This document shows positions 11,712 to 20,060 of a stretch of DNA of 25,047 nucleotides, piece after piece (within the stretch, counting starts at the first letter, position 1; every line of letters begins with the position of its first letter). The notes under the pieces are model-generated. The model searched no databases. It saw only the letters and a list, made by a program, of their open reading frames with translations, and was not told the DNA's origin. Source of the stretch: a virus. Made by a program: the position numbers and the translations under genes. The stretch is from positions 1-25,047 of IMG/VR virus record IMGVR_UViG_3300031974_004359; one strand, given 5' to 3'.

Positions 11712-12284
11712 CTACTCTTTTTCAGTTGCATACTTCACACCCATAATCGTACCTACGATTGAGAATGCGTTAGTTAAGAGAATACCAAACATATTACTCC
11801 AAGTAGAACCAATGATTTGTGTATCAGTACCAGAAACCAATGCTAATCCATACATAGCAGTTGTAAGAACACCAACTCCTATAATCACATAAAGTGCAAC
11901 TCTTACAATGGTACTGATTAATTCAAATTGAGTTTTCTTTTGCATTAGTTCCAAATCTTCTAATGCTTTATCTTTACCTTCTTCTGCTTCTTCTTTAAGT
12001 TGGTTTGCTTCTTCTAATGCTACTTTGAGTTCTTCCATCAAAGCATCATTTTCTTCTTGTTTAGCAACTAACTCTTTGTTTTGTTTCTGAACTTGTTTGG
12101 TAACTTGTAATCGTTTTCTTCTTGCCGTAGAATCTTTTTCTTTACATACTTTAAGGTACTCTTCAAACTCCACATCATCTTTTGGTGCTTGTAGAATTTT
12201 TAGAAAGTTACCCTCAACATAAATCTTTTTCTTTTTGGCAACTTCTAACAATACATCTCTTGTATGTTTTGTTATTGGTATCAT
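11712..12284 (-). CDS. Coiled-coil protein with two C-terminal membrane helices
   Basis: A 190-residue protein. Residues 1-50 form a small charged domain (VLLEVAKKKKIYVEG). Residues ~55-120 are a strong coiled coil (VQKQNKELVAKQEENDALME, then KVALEEANQLKEEAEEG). Two hydrophobic helices follow at ~124-150 and ~162-184, with a short loop containing SGTDTQIIGSTW between them. The long charged N-terminus is probably cytoplasmic. The start overlaps the receiver gene's stop as ATGA, so the two are translated together. This makes it the best candidate partner or output of the phosphorelay; the two-helix end is also compatible with a holin-like or channel-like role. Both ideas are inference. Confidence 0.78.
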   Translation of the reverse strand: MIPITKHTRDVLLEVAKKKKIYVEGNFLKILQAPKDDVEFEEYLKVCKEKDSTARRKRLQVTKQVQKQNKELVAKQEENDALMEELKVALEEANQLKEEAEEGKDKALEDLELMQKKTQFELISTIVRVALYVIIGVGVLTTAMYGLALVSGTDTQIIGSTWSNMFGILLTNAFSIVGTIMGVKYATEKE

Positions 12285-12727
12285 TTATAAACTTTGAAAG
12301 GGTTTGTTCTATTCAAATATCCTTTATAATCACTTCTAAATTCTTCTAATCGAGGTTCGATATCATCTGATTTGATAATCCAAAATTGTGCACCTGCTGC
12401 TTTTGCTTTTTCAATTTCTTGATTATCATCTGAAGATGAGATAATACCAATCACACAACCATTGCCATAATCAAAGTTGATTTTTCTAACCAACTCGATT
12501 CCATCAAATGAAGAACCGATAATATTCAAGTCAACAAATACACATTCAGGTCTTTCACCGTTTGGGTCATCAGGAAACCATTCCTTAAATTTTGCATCAG
12601 CCTCATCAGAGGAGTTTAATGCCTCTAAAGAAAGTGTGATATCTAAGATACTACAAGCATCTTCAAATACTAAGTGGAATAAATCTTCATCATCCACCAA
12701 TAAGATTGAGTTAATCATTTCGTTCAT
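12281..12727 (-). CDS. Stand-alone response-regulator receiver domain protein
   Basis: A 148-residue CheY-type receiver with no output domain. Counting from MNEMINSILLVDDED, the acidic pocket is D12/D13 and the phospho-acceptor is D66 in CVFVDLNI. The switch residue is S97 in IGIISSS and the invariant lysine is K119 in FWIIKSD. All key positions are intact, so phosphorylation is likely. I place the start at 12727 because its ATG overlaps the kinase stop as ATGA; a 28-residue upstream extension of the frame lies inside the kinase gene and has no receiver character. Its stop overlaps the start of the coiled-coil membrane protein by ATGA. Receivers of this kind act by protein contact or as phosphate sinks. 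Confidence 0.88.
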   Translation of the reverse strand: MNEMINSILLVDDEDLFHLVFEDACSILDITLSLEALNSSDEADAKFKEWFPDDPNGERPECVFVDLNIIGSSFDGIELVRKINFDYGNGCVIGIISSSDDNQEIEKAKAAGAQFWIIKSDDIEPRLEEFRSDYKGYLNRTNPFKVYK

Positions 12728-13956
12728 TTTATTTTGATTTTTAATTTTGTACCAGAATCTAATTTTTCTGCAGTTATTTTGAAACCATGTTCTTTCAAAA
12801 TTGCGATACAAATATTTAATCCCAATCCTGAGCCTCCTTCCTTTTGTCCTTCTTTTCTCGTATATGGTTTAGATAACTCTAAGAATTCTTCTTGAGTAAT
12901 ACCTCTACCATTATCCTCCACACAAAGTGTAGAATCGTTTTCCATATAAATGGTAACCATCTTTGTACTACTATCGTTATACTTTAATCCGTTTCTGATT
13001 AAGTTATCAATTGCGGTACAAAAGAGTGGTTCGTTCACTTCCATTGTAGGTAACCGTTCGATTTTAACTTGCTTTACATATGATGTAGAAGATAGGTAGT
13101 TTCTAAGTACTTCACCTAAATTAACTTCTGCCATATCTAAGTGAGCATCCTCTTTTACCAAATTTGTAAATTCTTTAACTCCAGCGTAAACCTTTTGAGT
13201 ATGTTTCAATCCTTCTTCCAACATTCGTAAAGGTGCATCAATTTTTAGTTCCTTTACTTTATCATCAGTTAATCTTCTTCTAAGAGATGTTAATCCTCTT
13301 GGCATATAAGTGTTGATACCACTATGCATATCGTGTCGTAGAATCTTTGCAGCGTGTTCCAAATAAGAGTTCTTTTGGTTTACCATAACTTCCGATTCGT
13401 GTTGGATTGTGATATCTGCTGCAATCTTTAGAACTTTATCATAAGTTCCATTTGAATTCTGAATAGGTGTGTAGTTACCAAATAACCAAACCGAACTACC
13501 ATCTTTTGCAACTCTTTCAAACTCACCACTAATGGTTTCGCCTCTTTTTAATTTTTGCCAAAATTCGTGGTATTCTAAACTATCTGCATAATCCTTTGTA
13601 ACCATTCTTCTATGTTGTTTGTGTTTTAGTTCTTTTTCACTACACTTCATTGTGTTACAAAACTTGGAGTTTGCTTCTAAGATGTATCCATCCATATCCA
13701 TCATTACCACCAAATTAGATTTATCAATTGCCGCTAATTGTAAATCAATATTTGCTTCTTTTAATTTAGTGGTACGAATAAAATCATATACCACATAAAA
13801 GAAAGGTGGCATGAAAGCAATAACACAACCATAACCAAACTCAGCAAGGAAGTAGGTAGGTTCACACCATCTCATTACTATACAAGTTTGTACAATAAAG
13901 AAAGTGAGCATGATAACACCAGCTATGCCCAAACATATTTTTGCAAACTTATTCAT
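12724..13956 (-). CDS. Membrane PAS-domain sensor histidine kinase
   Basis: A 410-residue complete sensor kinase. Two membrane helices (~5-29 and ~38-60) with almost no loop outside the cell imply sensing in or at the membrane, or by the PAS domain. PAS/PAC spans ~72-190 (LVVMMDMDGYILEANSKF; EFERVAKDGSSVWLFGNYTP). The phospho-accepting histidine is H208 in KILRHDMHSGIN; the proline common in H-boxes is absent. The ATPase domain shows the N box (AIDNLIRNGLKYND, N318/N322), G1 (CVEDNGRGI, D348) and G2 (GGSGLGLNIC, ~374-383). Everything needed for activity is present. The receiver follows with an ATGA overlap. Histidine kinases are rare in phage genomes, so host origin by transfer is likely, but codon use looks like its neighbours. 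Confidence 0.93.
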   Translation of the reverse strand: MNKFAKICLGIAGVIMLTFFIVQTCIVMRWCEPTYFLAEFGYGCVIAFMPPFFYVVYDFIRTTKLKEANIDLQLAAIDKSNLVVMMDMDGYILEANSKFCNTMKCSEKELKHKQHRRMVTKDYADSLEYHEFWQKLKRGETISGEFERVAKDGSSVWLFGNYTPIQNSNGTYDKVLKIAADITIQHESEVMVNQKNSYLEHAAKILRHDMHSGINTYMPRGLTSLRRRLTDDKVKELKIDAPLRMLEEGLKHTQKVYAGVKEFTNLVKEDAHLDMAEVNLGEVLRNYLSSTSYVKQVKIERLPTMEVNEPLFCTAIDNLIRNGLKYNDSSTKMVTIYMENDSTLCVEDNGRGITQEEFLELSKPYTRKEGQKEGGSGLGLNICIAILKEHGFKITAEKLDSGTKLKIKIK

Positions 13957-14315: not shown

Positions 14316-15041
14316 TTAGTAAGAAAAGAACTCATCCTCATCGGAATCATCTCTGATTTCACCATAATCTAAATAATCATTTAGCATTTTCTTTTGGTGT
14401 TCTTTCATTACATTTACAACTTTAGTAATATAATGAGTTTTACAATCAGTCATTTCTCTGATTAAAAGATAAAGATGTTTTTTGTTGAAGTTTTCAATGT
14501 ATTGACTTCTTCTAAATAATTCTAAGATAGCATCTGCAATTTGAATATCTCTTTTCTTTGTAAACACCTTTGTTAGATTTTTGTCCCAATACTCTAACAT
14601 CAAATCTTTGAACTCAGAAAATTCATCACCTTGTTGACTTTCGTAAAAATCATTTTGAGGATTCCATGTTTCTGGCATTTGAGATAATAAATCCGTTTTC
14701 TTATATCTTTTGTAATTACCATTATTTTTTAATATTAAATGGTTTTTTGCTATGATTGAAAAATAAGAAAAGGCCCTACCTTTATCTGGTTGATACATAT
14801 GAATTTTTTGTATCATCATTGATACTACTTCCTTTTTCACATCATCCTTTGGAACATCAAAATAAGAAAACTTAAATGTGTTTAATACATTTTCTGCTAA
14901 CTTTTCAAAAGGATATTGAATTCTTTCTTCATATATCTTTGATTTTTTTCGTGGGTCTTTACAATTATTGTATTCAATTATTGCCTCTTGGGCAGGTGTA
15001 CCAAAGTATATTTTGGATTTTTTTCTTCTTGGTCTTGGCAT
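14316..15041 (-). CDS. 55: T4 gp55-like late transcription sigma factor
   Basis: A 241-residue protein resembling T4-like gp55, the phage sigma that directs host RNA polymerase to late promoters. A basic N-terminus (MPRPRRKKSKIYFG) leads into helices and the region-2-like core at ~66-103, with DVKKEVVSMMIQKIHMYQPD and GRAFSYFSIIAKNHLI. The latter is the typical 'G-x-A-F-S-Y-F' sigma-2 helix. The C-terminus is acidic (DDSDEDEFFSY), which in T4 gp55 and gp33 is where the sliding clamp binds; that role here is inference. It follows a small membrane protein under a host-type promoter at 15334-15365, so host polymerase can make it. It likely recognises the ATATTTATA boxes found in this window. Confidence 0.85.
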   Translation of the reverse strand: MPRPRRKKSKIYFGTPAQEAIIEYNNCKDPRKKSKIYEERIQYPFEKLAENVLNTFKFSYFDVPKDDVKKEVVSMMIQKIHMYQPDKGRAFSYFSIIAKNHLILKNNGNYKRYKKTDLLSQMPETWNPQNDFYESQQGDEFSEFKDLMLEYWDKNLTKVFTKKRDIQIADAILELFRRSQYIENFNKKHLYLLIREMTDCKTHYITKVVNVMKEHQKKMLNDYLDYGEIRDDSDEDEFFSY

Positions 15042-15365: not shown

Positions 15366-15584
15366 TTATGCCTCACCTTTTTCTCCCCAATAAGGAAAAT
15401 TTAGAAGTTCAACTTCTATTTCTTGTTCTCTAACTTGGTTTCCTAACTCTTTTATTCTATCTAAAATTTTTTTATCCAACCCATCTCTATCAACGATTTT
15501 GCTATCAACTAATTCTTCTACTAAAGATTCAATAATAATTTCTAAGGTTGCTATCTTTTGTTCTAATATGTATAATCTACTCAT
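15366..15584 (-). CDS. 72-residue coiled-coil protein
   Basis: A 72-residue, mostly helical protein: MSRLYILEQKIATLEIIIES with heptad leucine/isoleucine spacing, then a second helix (LDKKILDRIKELGNQVREQE) and a short aromatic end (LLNFPYWGEKGEA). It probably forms a small coiled coil. Three bases separate it from the 83-residue gene upstream, so it is the last gene of the UvdE transcript. The next promoter begins right at its stop. No family recognised. Confidence 0.68.
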   Translation of the reverse strand: MSRLYILEQKIATLEIIIESLVEELVDSKIVDRDGLDKKILDRIKELGNQVREQEIEVELLNFPYWGEKGEA

Positions 15585-15587
15585 TAT

Positions 15588-15839
15588 TTATGGTGTAAGA
15601 GAACCTGTCAATTGATTTACGGCTTGCATAAATTCTTTGAAGTCTCTATCTGATTCGGTTTCGTAATCTAAACTGCCAAATGCTTTCTTGACAGAATTAT
15701 GATGGTAACCCATTGCATGTGCCATTCGAACACACATAATCTTATACTCATAAATATTCATATCATCAGGAACATCGAATGTAATGTTCTTTGCTTCCCT
15801 ATTTAGGGAATCTTCTGATTCGTAACTAAACATTCCCAT
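15588..15839 (-). CDS. 83-residue soluble protein of unknown function
   Basis: An 83-residue protein starting MGMFSYESEDSLN, with a helical core (YEYKIMCVRMAHAMGYHHNS; DRDFKEFMQAVNQL). A second in-frame ATG two codons in is also possible. The His/Cys/Met-rich stretch CVRMAHAMGYHH could bind a metal but has no recognised pattern. Two bases separate it from the stop of the deformylase-like gene. Position in a transcript with UvdE suggests early or middle expression. Confidence 0.65.
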   Translation of the reverse strand: MGMFSYESEDSLNREAKNITFDVPDDMNIYEYKIMCVRMAHAMGYHHNSVKKAFGSLDYETESDRDFKEFMQAVNQLTGSLTP

Positions 15840-15841
15840 AA

Positions 15842-16414
15842 TTATACTAATTTATATCCTTTATCTAAAAGAGGTTGTGCTTTTTTGTATTTAACAAATT
15901 CCATGTCTCCTTCAGGTGACTGTAACATTACTCTTTCGTTTCTACCTGGTTTCTTTTCAACCTTTCTTTCTTGTGTATATCTTCGTAATGGTGAGTTTAC
16001 ATCAATACCATCAAGTGAATCAATTAGTCTTTGAGCAAGAACACACTCAAACAATCCAACATCATTCATAAATTCTTGTTCACTTTTCCAAGTGTCTTTT
16101 TCTGAAGAAAACTCAACAACTCCAAGATTGTCTGTATTGACCTTAAACCATTTATGTCTTACAGTTTTTCTTGTTTTTTGTTTAGCAGAATCTTTTTCGA
16201 AATAAACCACCATATCTTTTGACTTTTCTGTCACAACAGGATTTACCATTGTTAATTCTTCATACTCTCCACCAAACCGAAGTGTGATGATTCTTTTATC
16301 CATTCCAACATCTAAACCTGTAAATGCTATCCCTTCTAATTTAGATATACTTTCGTTATATTGGTTTAACTCTTCGTTTGTAACGGTAGTTTTTTCAACT
16401 CTTTTTATTATCAT
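15842..16414 (-). CDS. Peptide deformylase-like protein lacking metal ligands
   Basis: A 190-residue protein whose ~20-145 follows the order of peptide deformylase, the enzyme that removes formyl from new proteins. Motif 1 is GIAFTGLDVGMDKRI (28-42) where active enzymes have GxGLAAPQVG. A good family segment follows: MVNPVVTEKSKDMVVY (56-71). Motif 2, normally EGCLS, is replaced by FEKDSA. Motif 3, normally QHExDHLxG, is QRLIDSLDG (128-136). The cysteine and both histidines that bind the metal and the catalytic glutamate are therefore gone. The C-terminal ~40 residues add a linker and EFVKYKKAQPLLDKGYKLV. It is most likely a catalytically dead deformylase fold kept for binding. The alternative, chance resemblance, is less likely given three aligned blocks. 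Confidence 0.65.
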   Translation of the reverse strand: MIIKRVEKTTVTNEELNQYNESISKLEGIAFTGLDVGMDKRIITLRFGGEYEELTMVNPVVTEKSKDMVVYFEKDSAKQKTRKTVRHKWFKVNTDNLGVVEFSSEKDTWKSEQEFMNDVGLFECVLAQRLIDSLDGIDVNSPLRRYTQERKVEKKPGRNERVMLQSPEGDMEFVKYKKAQPLLDKGYKLV

Positions 16415-16571
16415 AATATTTTTCTATTTCATTAGTTAGGTAATCTACTGAATCTGAACTTCCAACAAATGCTCCATACTTTGAATAATATTGAATCCAC
16501 TTATCTTTATCAGAATCAAATTGTTCTTTTAACTGATATATTTCTGGTACATGAATTTTTACATAACTCAT
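16395..16571 (-). CDS. 58-residue protein coupled to the cupin gene
   Basis: ATG at 16571 overlaps the cupin stop as ATGA and opens a 58-codon frame beginning MSYVKIHVPEIYQLKEQFDS and ending EKYYDNKKS with TGA at 16397-16395. It fills a gap of about 150 bases and overlaps the start of the deformylase-like gene by 20 bases. The product is small, acidic-aromatic and helical, with an inner KWIQYYSKYGAFVGSS block. Support comes from the ATGA coupling and complete fill of the gap; no family is recognised. Confidence 0.6.
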   Translation of the reverse strand: MSYVKIHVPEIYQLKEQFDSDKDKWIQYYSKYGAFVGSSDSVDYLTNEIEKYYDNKKS

Positions 16572-16954
16572 AATAAATCCTCTGGGGTTTGTCTGTAAAC
16601 TCTATAACTATCTTCATCAAAGTGTTGGGTCGAAACTTCAAATACAATTGAGTTATCTTCTAATGCAATTAACTGATGAGGCAATCCTCTTTCAATTAAA
16701 ACACTATCACCCTTCTCTAATGTTTTACCTTCCAATTTTCCATCTTCTACATTCAACCAATTAAATTGAAATCTTCCTTCTTGCACATACCAACTTTCTT
16801 TTTTCTTTAAGTGGTAATGCATTGAGAACCTATTTCTTTCTTTTGTGAATACTAATAATTTACCACAATACTCTTCATCGTTGTGAATCCATAGTTCATA
16901 TCCCCAATTCTTTTCTACTCTCTTAGGAGCTTTAATATCTACATCTATAATCAT
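16568..16954 (-). CDS. Single-domain cupin, mannose-6-phosphate isomerase-like
   Basis: A 128-residue single cupin of the type II mannose-6-phosphate isomerase-like group. The leading NWGYELWIHND resembles the 'E-x-x-W-G-x-E' start of that family. Cupin motif 1 gives H46, H48 and E53 (SMHYHLKKKESWYVQEGRF). Motif 2 gives H93 (GDSVLIERGLPHQLIAL). All four metal ligands are present, so it is probably an active metalloprotein. The substrate cannot be told; a sugar phosphate is plausible from the family. Its start overlaps the UvdE stop as ATGA and its stop overlaps the next small gene the same way, placing it in the UvdE transcript. Confidence 0.82.
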   Translation of the reverse strand: MIIDVDIKAPKRVEKNWGYELWIHNDEEYCGKLLVFTKERNRFSMHYHLKKKESWYVQEGRFQFNWLNVEDGKLEGKTLEKGDSVLIERGLPHQLIALEDNSIVFEVSTQHFDEDSYRVYRQTPEDLL

Positions 16955-17904
16955 TCTGCGTAACTTTGTGTGTTTAACAATCCACTATAAGCACATATAC
17001 TTTCTTTTCCAATGAAAGGCATGATAGAAAGTTCTTTTGCTTTTGCTTCTACCATTACATCAACATCAGTACCATATAAGTCAGGTAACTCATTGATATA
17101 ATCTGAATGTGCCTGTGGTTTTAATTTTTCATTCTCTTCATGTAATGCTTTACTTTCTGAGTAATGAACAATAGGTTTAATATTTTTAGGCCATGTTGAG
17201 ATTGCCAGTTTTAGAGCCTCTTCTTCACTCAAATCACCTGTACAAAATTTGTGGTGGTGATAATCAAATACGATTGGGATACCAATTTTTTCGTGTAAGT
17301 ACATTAAGTCTTTTACTGAATACATTGATGCCTTATCATCATTCTCAACTGTCAATCTACTTTTTACCGAATCAGATAGTCTTTGGAAGTTATCACAAAA
17401 TCTATCCATAGCAGATTTCTTATCTCCATAAACACCATTACAATGAATATTTATTTTATTATAGTGAGATTTTTCCAATCCTAATAAATCAAAAATCTTA
17501 CCATGGATTTCCAAATCAGTAATAGTATTCTTTACTACTTTTTCACGAGGTGAAGTAAGTACATTAAAAGGACCAGGATGAGAAGTAATTCTAATTCCAT
17601 TTGTTTTTGCATAATGTCCACATCCTTGTAGTAGTGTTTTGATTCTCAAGTAATGTGGCAGTTCTTCTAAATTATACTCAGATGCCCAAGGAAACATTTC
17701 AGATGATAGTCTGAATAATTTAATTCCATTTTCATTATTCCATTTTAGAATTTGAAACAAGTCTCTTACATTTTCTAATGCAAGTTCTGATGCGTAATCG
17801 ATTCCCCTTTCTTCAAAGGTTCGTTTAATCATTGACCGATTGGTTGTAACTTTGGGTTTTTGTTTACCAAGTGTCATGTTAATACAAGCGTAACCTAAAT
17901 TCAT
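16951..17904 (-). CDS. uvsE: UV damage endonuclease UvdE/UvsE-like
   Basis: A 317-residue protein of the UvdE family, a TIM-barrel metal-dependent endonuclease that nicks 5' of UV photoproducts. The start MNLGYACINMTLG is typical. Later blocks include KLFRLSSEMFPWASEYNL, GIRITSHPGPFNVLTSP, INIHCNGVYGDKKSAMDRF, LTVENDDKASMYSVKDL, IPIVFDYHHHKFCTGD and KPIVHYSES. These carry the His, Glu and Asp metal ligands expected along the barrel. Length is normal and intact. It is the first gene behind a near-perfect Bacteroidota promoter (17931-17962) and leads a six-gene run, so early repair of phage DNA is likely. Confidence 0.92.
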   Translation of the reverse strand: MNLGYACINMTLGKQKPKVTTNRSMIKRTFEERGIDYASELALENVRDLFQILKWNNENGIKLFRLSSEMFPWASEYNLEELPHYLRIKTLLQGCGHYAKTNGIRITSHPGPFNVLTSPREKVVKNTITDLEIHGKIFDLLGLEKSHYNKINIHCNGVYGDKKSAMDRFCDNFQRLSDSVKSRLTVENDDKASMYSVKDLMYLHEKIGIPIVFDYHHHKFCTGDLSEEEALKLAISTWPKNIKPIVHYSESKALHEENEKLKPQAHSDYINELPDLYGTDVDVMVEAKAKELSIMPFIGKESICAYSGLLNTQSYAE

Positions 17905-19670: not shown

Positions 19671-20060
19671 TTAAAATTTAATCTTTACTTTTTTAGATTT
19701 TCTTTCTTCTTTTTTATCTAAAAGAATAGTTAATAAACCATTCTCAATTGATGCACTTGTAGTTGTTCCATCATAGTCTTTTCCTACTTTGAATCTAAGA
19801 TTTACATTACCAACTACTGCATTTACATTTTGAGTTTCTGCTTTGATTGTAATTAAATCTTCAGTAACATCTACATCTACATCTTTAGGATTATGTCCTA
19901 CAACATTGATGAGGATTTGTTGTTTTCCATCTTCGGTTGTTGTAATAGAATAATTACCTTGTTGGTGTTTTACATGAAGTGGTTTGAATGTTGAATCAAA
20001 TACTTCATCAAATAAAGTGTCAATTGTATAAATCATATTTTTCATTTTTAAGTTAAACAT
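19671..20060 (-). CDS. hsp20: Hsp20/alpha-crystallin small heat shock protein
   Basis: A 129-residue small heat shock protein. The crystallin domain covers ~35-119: YSITTTEDGKQQILINVVGH, then KDVDVDVTEDLITIKAET and the conserved A-x-x-x-N-G-x-L strand as SIENGLLTILL (104-114). It ends with a lysine-rich tail (KKVKIKF). Such chaperones hold unfolding proteins and are frequent in T4-like marine phages, possibly aiding capsid or scaffold folding. An alternative start at 20045 (MKNMIYT) is possible, since the first five residues add little. It has its own terminator at 19612-19646 and an upstream inverted-repeat region at 20102-20128. Confidence 0.9.
   Translation of the reverse strand: MFNLKMKNMIYTIDTLFDEVFDSTFKPLHVKHQQGNYSITTTEDGKQQILINVVGHNPKDVDVDVTEDLITIKAETQNVNAVVGNVNLRFKVGKDYDGTTTSASIENGLLTILLDKKEERKSKKVKIKF

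Follow-up and report, generated by a model that had tools for sequence, protein, structure and literature searches.

The open reading frame at positions 15842-16414, on the minus strand of the 25,047-nucleotide window (the whole stretch of viral DNA that was analysed), very probably encodes a pseudoenzyme derived from a phage peptide deformylase (PDF) with a C-terminal tail, here called a tailed PDF. PDFs trim the initial residue of newly made proteins. The gene at 15842-16414 is carried by many large aquatic phages, and its product has the shape of a PDF with the catalytic residues lost. This conclusion rests on the family assignment and fold, the loss of the catalytic residues, a single origin, the genomic slot shared with intact enzymes and purifying selection. 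The wider reading, in which an orthologous switch left a dead protein that still functions by binding, possibly in the vicinity of the ribosome, is proposed tentatively, with a confidence slightly short of even. Members of the lineage that lack or retain the catalytic residues are referred to below as dead and intact, respectively. The features of the reading frame are as follows.

15842-16414, minus strand: pseudo-deformylase reading frame, 190 aa, ATG start, frame uninterrupted
16304-16333, minus strand: former motif I, residues 28-37 (GIAFTGLDVG), Gln replaced by Asp35
16184-16204, minus strand: former motif II, residues 71-77 (YFEKDSA), the metal ligand Cys replaced by Asp75
16007-16033, minus strand: former motif III, residues 128-136 (QRLIDSLDG), His replaced by Arg129, Glu by Leu130 and His by Ser133
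15845-15946, minus strand: C-terminal tail, residues 157-190, predicted strand-strand-helix

Profile searches place the 190-residue product in the deformylase family. Pfam PF01327 (Pep_deformylase) matches it with an E value of 1.6e-7 and 31.5 bits, above the curated cut-off of 22.8, and a search of the record itself puts the PDF family on the same reading frame (E 2.2e-9). PHROG 2890, “peptide deformylase”, matches at E 1.6e-4, and the NCBIfam deformylase models match at E 2e-6 and 1.7e-5. The NCBIfam scores lie far below the equivalog cut-offs for an active PDF (27.6 bits against 190, and 24.4 against 103.95), which fits a member without the motifs. The initial annotation had proposed a PDF homologue in an intact frame, and the Pfam, record, PHROG and NCBIfam searches bear this out, with no other family better supported. 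PF01327 matches all 101 aligned members, dead and intact, at E <= 0.01. A Pfam search can miss dead members, some of which score under the cut-off or escape a record search; the G006 record, which carries the dead protein L058, yields zero PF01327 matches.

The catalytic positions were compared in an alignment of 49 distinct full-length dead proteins and 54 distinct intact ones. The five positions read Q, C, H, E and H in 54/54 intact proteins, in which motif III was fixed by the search pattern (L086 apart) and motifs I and II were not, and all five are changed in 49/49 dead proteins. The 190-residue protein retains 0/5 of the residues that mark an active PDF (Gln, Cys and His-Glu-x-x-His), as do all 54 dead proteins that are complete at these positions. 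The Cys, the Glu and both His had been listed at the outset as lost, correctly for this protein, but the loss of the motif I Gln, which is Asp in 49/49 distinct dead proteins, had been overlooked. Across the 49 dead proteins, the motif II Cys has become Asp (43) or Glu (6), and the Gly, Gln or Ser that precedes it has become Lys or Arg. In motif III, the first His is replaced by Arg (47) or Lys (2), the Glu by Leu (29), Ala (18) or Gly (2), and the second His by Ala (31) or Ser (18). The Glu preceding the Cys, the Gln preceding HExxH and the Asp inside HExxH are unchanged in all dead and intact proteins; in the FEKDSA motif of the 190-residue protein, Glu73 is retained and Asp75 stands in place of the Cys. 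These losses strongly imply that the protein is without deformylase activity, and only imply it, because PDFs with altered motifs can be active, as noted for the type 3 PDF of T. brucei in work cited in the available portion of PMC12690207. As a separate observation, the intact proteins often carry a variant motif II, EQCLS in 34/54 and ESCLS in 3/54 distinct proteins in place of EGCLS, as in the loci L108, L105 and L106.

Close dead relatives were obtained from searches of viral contigs, and intact tailed PDFs from a pattern of HExDH followed by the tail; the first intact tailed PDF came from LR756508.1, a record of 484 kb, where it precedes the 241-aa anchor gene described below. Among the best 80 of the 88 stretches that fit the pattern, 79 encode a PDF and one (L132) does not. 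For the tree, 10 of the 80 were set aside (start or motif I unplaced, some truncated), 53 distinct proteins from the remaining 70 were used together with L086, and the truncated L076 was excluded from the dead set. The maximum-likelihood tree of 109 proteins groups all dead proteins together (support 100/100); this clade was recovered in each of the 200 bootstrap trees, and its stem is long, at 1.55 changes per column. The clade is nested in the intact tailed PDFs of related phages and is joined to 37 of them at a fork with support of 96/90, in a tree in which long branches meet and the positions of the outgroup and of L086 are unsure. A wider count drew on all loci retrieved, including those from scans in which the catalytic residues were not required, and comprises 165 distinct relatives: 105 are intact at 5/5 positions, 54 are at 0/5, 0 are mixed and 6 are incomplete. 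As many as six of the 165 may be untailed PDFs that had been retrieved as an outgroup, and these scans gave the 80 best of 354, 201 and 502 relatives, which means that intermediates, if rare, may have escaped. A single loss of catalysis would be the simplest account of the origin of the dead clade. Zero relatives were returned by one scan of GTDB bacterial contigs, by tblastn of the 190-aa protein against annotated phages and by a single-sequence search of viral contigs with the LR756508.1 PDF.

The dead genes are constrained by purifying selection. The Nei-Gojobori dN/dS has a median of 0.29 and a maximum of 0.59 in the dead clade (1085 pairs) and a median of 0.35 among the intact PDFs (1196 pairs), for non-independent pairs restricted to dS 0.3-1.5 and with a method that is rough in AT-rich DNA. 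The simplest reading of an intact frame under selection across the whole clade would be a non-catalytic role, for which the initial annotation had named binding to the ribosome or to formyl-Met peptides and inhibition of the host deformylase or methionine aminopeptidase as candidates.

The predicted model of the 190-aa protein has a mean pLDDT of 91.3 when built from a 101-sequence alignment (49 dead and 52 intact proteins), from which the truncated L104 and L086 were excluded. A model built from 16 close dead relatives alone reaches a pLDDT of 55, which indicates that the fold rests partly on homology. The best solved matches of the model in Foldseek are PDFs. VIA-align, which was applied to Foldseek's ranked matches and does not exclude other folds, superposes the model on 3uwb, the PDF of phage S-SSM7, with a Z score of 14.2 over 126 residues and an rmsd of 2.5; among these matches, none scores higher than 3uwb, and several other PDFs tie with it. 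The deformylase fold that the initial annotation expected is therefore recovered, in a model whose alignment included the 52 intact PDFs.

The solved PDFs, 3uwb included, align to model residues 2 to ~149, and the tail lies outside the aligned region. The predicted elements of the tail are strands at 161-165 and 171-175 and a helix near 180-184, and residues 161-190 have a pLDDT of ~91-93. The tail is basic and conserved, and it is common to the dead clade and to the intact PDFs of related phages. It had been taken for an addition to the dead form, possibly a docking peptide; the same tail in the intact PDFs contradicts this, and the element is ancestral and is predicted to be folded, not a free peptide. 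Across the dead/intact split, the mean identity is 0.47 in the tail (157-190) against 0.35 in the core (1-156), and positions that hold the same residue in at least 97% of both sets number 7/34 in the tail against 14/156 in the core, a borderline difference (Fisher p 0.07). Such conservation speaks for a non-catalytic function that would be common to both kinds of protein. In 10 large records, the tail profile matches the PDF gene alone strongly in eight, weakly in a ninth and not at all in the tenth, with no second strong match in any gene of these records, and tblastn with the 42 C-terminal residues against the phage collection gives E values of 1 or worse throughout. The idea that the tail is a module of other phage proteins was rejected on these results, and as far as the searches went, the tail is an undescribed C-terminal element. 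A Foldseek search of a viral library returned a few phage proteins of 51-58 aa that may match the tail, with E values above 0.9.

The surroundings of the pseudo-deformylase gene were compared with those of intact PDF genes. The neighbouring genes used in the comparison are listed here.

15588-15839, minus strand: 83-aa gene, beginning two bases past the pseudo-deformylase stop
15366-15584, minus strand: 72-aa gene, the next after the 83-aa gene in the same row
14316-15041, minus strand: conserved 241-aa gene, the anchor of the common gene order
16568-16954, minus strand: cupin gene, upstream of the pseudo-deformylase

Dead and intact loci have a common downstream order of the 83-aa, 90-aa and 241-aa genes, followed farther downstream by a 131-aa gene and the baseplate genes gp25 and gp6, which indicates that the dead and intact genes are orthologues at one slot. 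The 72-aa gene resembles, in position and at its C-terminal end (by eye), a gene of ~80 aa that follows the intact PDFs, and in several intact loci, the small genes are separated from the 90-aa gene by a longer one whose product resembles a lysozyme-type hydrolase (by eye). The 83-aa gene has no family match below E 0.01, and the 241-aa gene has no Pfam match above the cut-off; a motif in the latter points to a putative sigma factor or gp55-like protein. Where at least 1.3 kb upstream is available, the cupin gene is present in 55/58 dead loci against 0/49 intact ones. By the 241-aa and baseplate genes, the nearest annotated relatives are Flavobacterium phage immuto, a phage recorded from Microcystis and LR756508.1, at ~36-47% identity, and hosts among the Bacteroidota are plausible on this basis.

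Several other genes were recorded in the window and its relatives. A small ORF of ~58 aa (by eye; ~16395-16571, minus strand), under the size limit of the ORF list, overlaps the start of the pseudo-deformylase. A PAS-containing histidine kinase (12281-13956, minus strand; HATPase_c, E 1.4e-14) adjoins a protein with a receiver domain (Response_reg, E 8.4e-7, slightly short of the cut-off); together they form a phage two-component pair that is found at this place in some relatives with a dead PDF and is missing in others. The window also encodes the UV damage endonuclease UvdE (16951-17904, minus strand; E 1.1e-70), which shares 46% identity with the UvdE of an uncultured phage of 642 kb, and an Hsp20-type small heat-shock protein (19671-20060, minus strand; E 2.7e-9). 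The relative of the 241-aa gene in Microcystis phage Mel-JY01 is preceded by a 120-aa gene, which has a ClpP-like protease gene (by eye; L084, 3954-4643) immediately upstream; an intact PDF is located elsewhere in that genome.

In the preferred reading, an ancestral tailed PDF would have lost its three metal ligands, its catalytic Glu and its motif I Gln once, and the dead protein would work through binding. It would probably dock where the intact tailed PDF does, via the basic tail and the body, most likely at the ribosome exit or nearby. There it may serve as a nascent-chain or partner-binding factor without deformylation, or it may keep host N-terminal processing away. The acid in place of the Cys and the base in place of the His may form a salt bridge where the metal had been and stabilize the fold.

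Docking on or near the ribosome is a possible but doubtful part of this reading. It is suggested by the C-terminal docking known in the family (the E. coli PDF docks on the ribosome via its C-terminal helix, according to the available portion of PMC5591237), by the basic conserved tail and by phage genes for bS21. A bS21 gene is present in 8/13 large records (G003, G006, G011, G025, G014, G015, G027 and G028), namely in 4/8 dead-type and 4/5 intact-type ones. Its absence from 4/8 dead-type records counts against a ribosomal role, as does the predicted form of the tail, which differs from the C-terminal helix of the E. coli PDF. M24 peptidases (the methionine aminopeptidase family) are absent from 13/13 large records searched, a further point against the preferred reading. 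A more specific version, in which the pseudoenzyme docked at the exit site blocks or redirects the N-terminal processing of new proteins, seems unlikely; if true, it would be the opposite of what phages are known to do, namely supply additional deformylase.

A complex with neighbouring small proteins is nearly as likely as the ribosomal role. According to this alternative, which we regard as somewhat unlikely, the ancestral tailed PDF already took part, as a second function, in a phage complex away from the ribosome, and of its functions the dead clade retains this scaffold role alone, with the products of the adjoining 83-aa and 72-aa genes as partners, for example. The close spacing of the 83-aa gene is in keeping with such a complex, as are the presence of this gene in 60/60 dead loci with at least 400 bases downstream available, that of the 241-aa gene in 56/56 dead loci with at least 2.5 kb available, and the tail kept in both sets. 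Among the intact loci with the same lengths available, the 241-aa gene is present in 54/58 and the 83-aa gene in 48/76; the 28/76 intact loci in which the 83-aa gene is not detectable weigh against the alternative, and conserved order by itself is no proof of contact.

The protein could also be a dominant-negative competitor of the host deformylase that occupies its docking site or formyl-Met peptides, so that the formyl group stays on, an explanation that we hold to be unlikely. The orthologous swap of an intact for a dead PDF, with body and tail kept, would suit such a competitor, and no second PDF-family gene was found in the large dead-type records with PF01327, a search that misses some dead members. 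Exactly one match is present in 5/5 and 9/10 dead-type records (two overlapping sets with two records in common), and in the one record with zero matches, the dead member is too divergent for the model to recognize. The possibility that these phages carry an active PDF in addition was likewise considered, and none was found in the dead-type records searched. Among the intact-type records, 11/12 have one match, and LR756508.1 has a second, weak match (E 0.02) below the cut-off. However, the substrate site is lined by motif I, and this motif is reshaped in the dead clade, with its second Gly lost in 49/49 proteins, so formyl-Met may no longer fit; additionally, the benefit to the phage is not evident.

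It is improbable that Asp35, Lys74, Asp75, Lys78, Arg82 and Arg129 form a new active site that makes the protein an enzyme. These residues are found in 43 to 49 of the 49 dead proteins and are rare or absent in the intact ones, but a charge network in the metal's place accounts for them equally well, and Asp75 is Glu in 6/49. To our knowledge, no hydrolase uses this set on a PDF fold. A decaying relic or a sequencing error, which the loss of every catalytic residue might suggest, is hardly credible given 54 distinct dead proteins on many contigs, none of them mixed, and the purifying selection on their genes.

The pseudoenzyme derived from a tailed PDF can be compared with three groups of known proteins. 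The intact tailed phage PDFs (L108 and L153 in IMG/VR, L086 in LR756508.1) belong to the same lineage as the dead clade and resemble it in the body from motif II to motif III, the C-terminal tail and the gene order; they differ in keeping Q, C, H, E and H, in a length of ~200 aa with a longer N-terminal part and, unlike the dead clade, in that no adjoining cupin gene was found. The PDFs of Synechococcus phage S-SSM7 (3uwa, 3uwb) and Vibrio phage Vp16 are like the dead clade in fold, whereas they are short active enzymes whose C-terminal part is reduced, according to the available portion of PMC5591237. In that portion, phage PDFs are taken as active and short, and the published viral PDFs are said to be without the ribosome-binding C-terminal region. 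The initial statement that phage deformylases are short thus holds for the published ones but not for this lineage, and set against that description, the tailed phage PDFs are noteworthy in themselves.

Inactive or weak PDFs are already known elsewhere. According to the available portions of PMC5591237 and PMC12690207, type 3 PDFs with altered motifs, weak or inactive, are found in archaea, trypanosomatids and some bacteria, and inactive second PDFs are found in S. aureus and S. pneumoniae. Type 3 PDFs, which are set apart here by description, are described there as changed in motifs I and II, whereas in the dead clade all five catalytic residues are gone, including both His of motif III, and the proteins belong to a phage lineage with a tail of its own. 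Among the titles and abstract openings listed by searches of an open-access library, none describes a dead phage PDF clade, and the phage pseudo-deformylase clade with its own tail appears to be new on this basis. Catalysis in this clade appears to have been lost once and fully, with no intermediates among the sequences seen, at the locus where sister phages carry the enzyme. Dead clade and intact tailed PDFs thereby form a natural matched pair, which may reveal what a deformylase does for a phage beyond deformylating and may also probe whether the tail docks on the ribosome.
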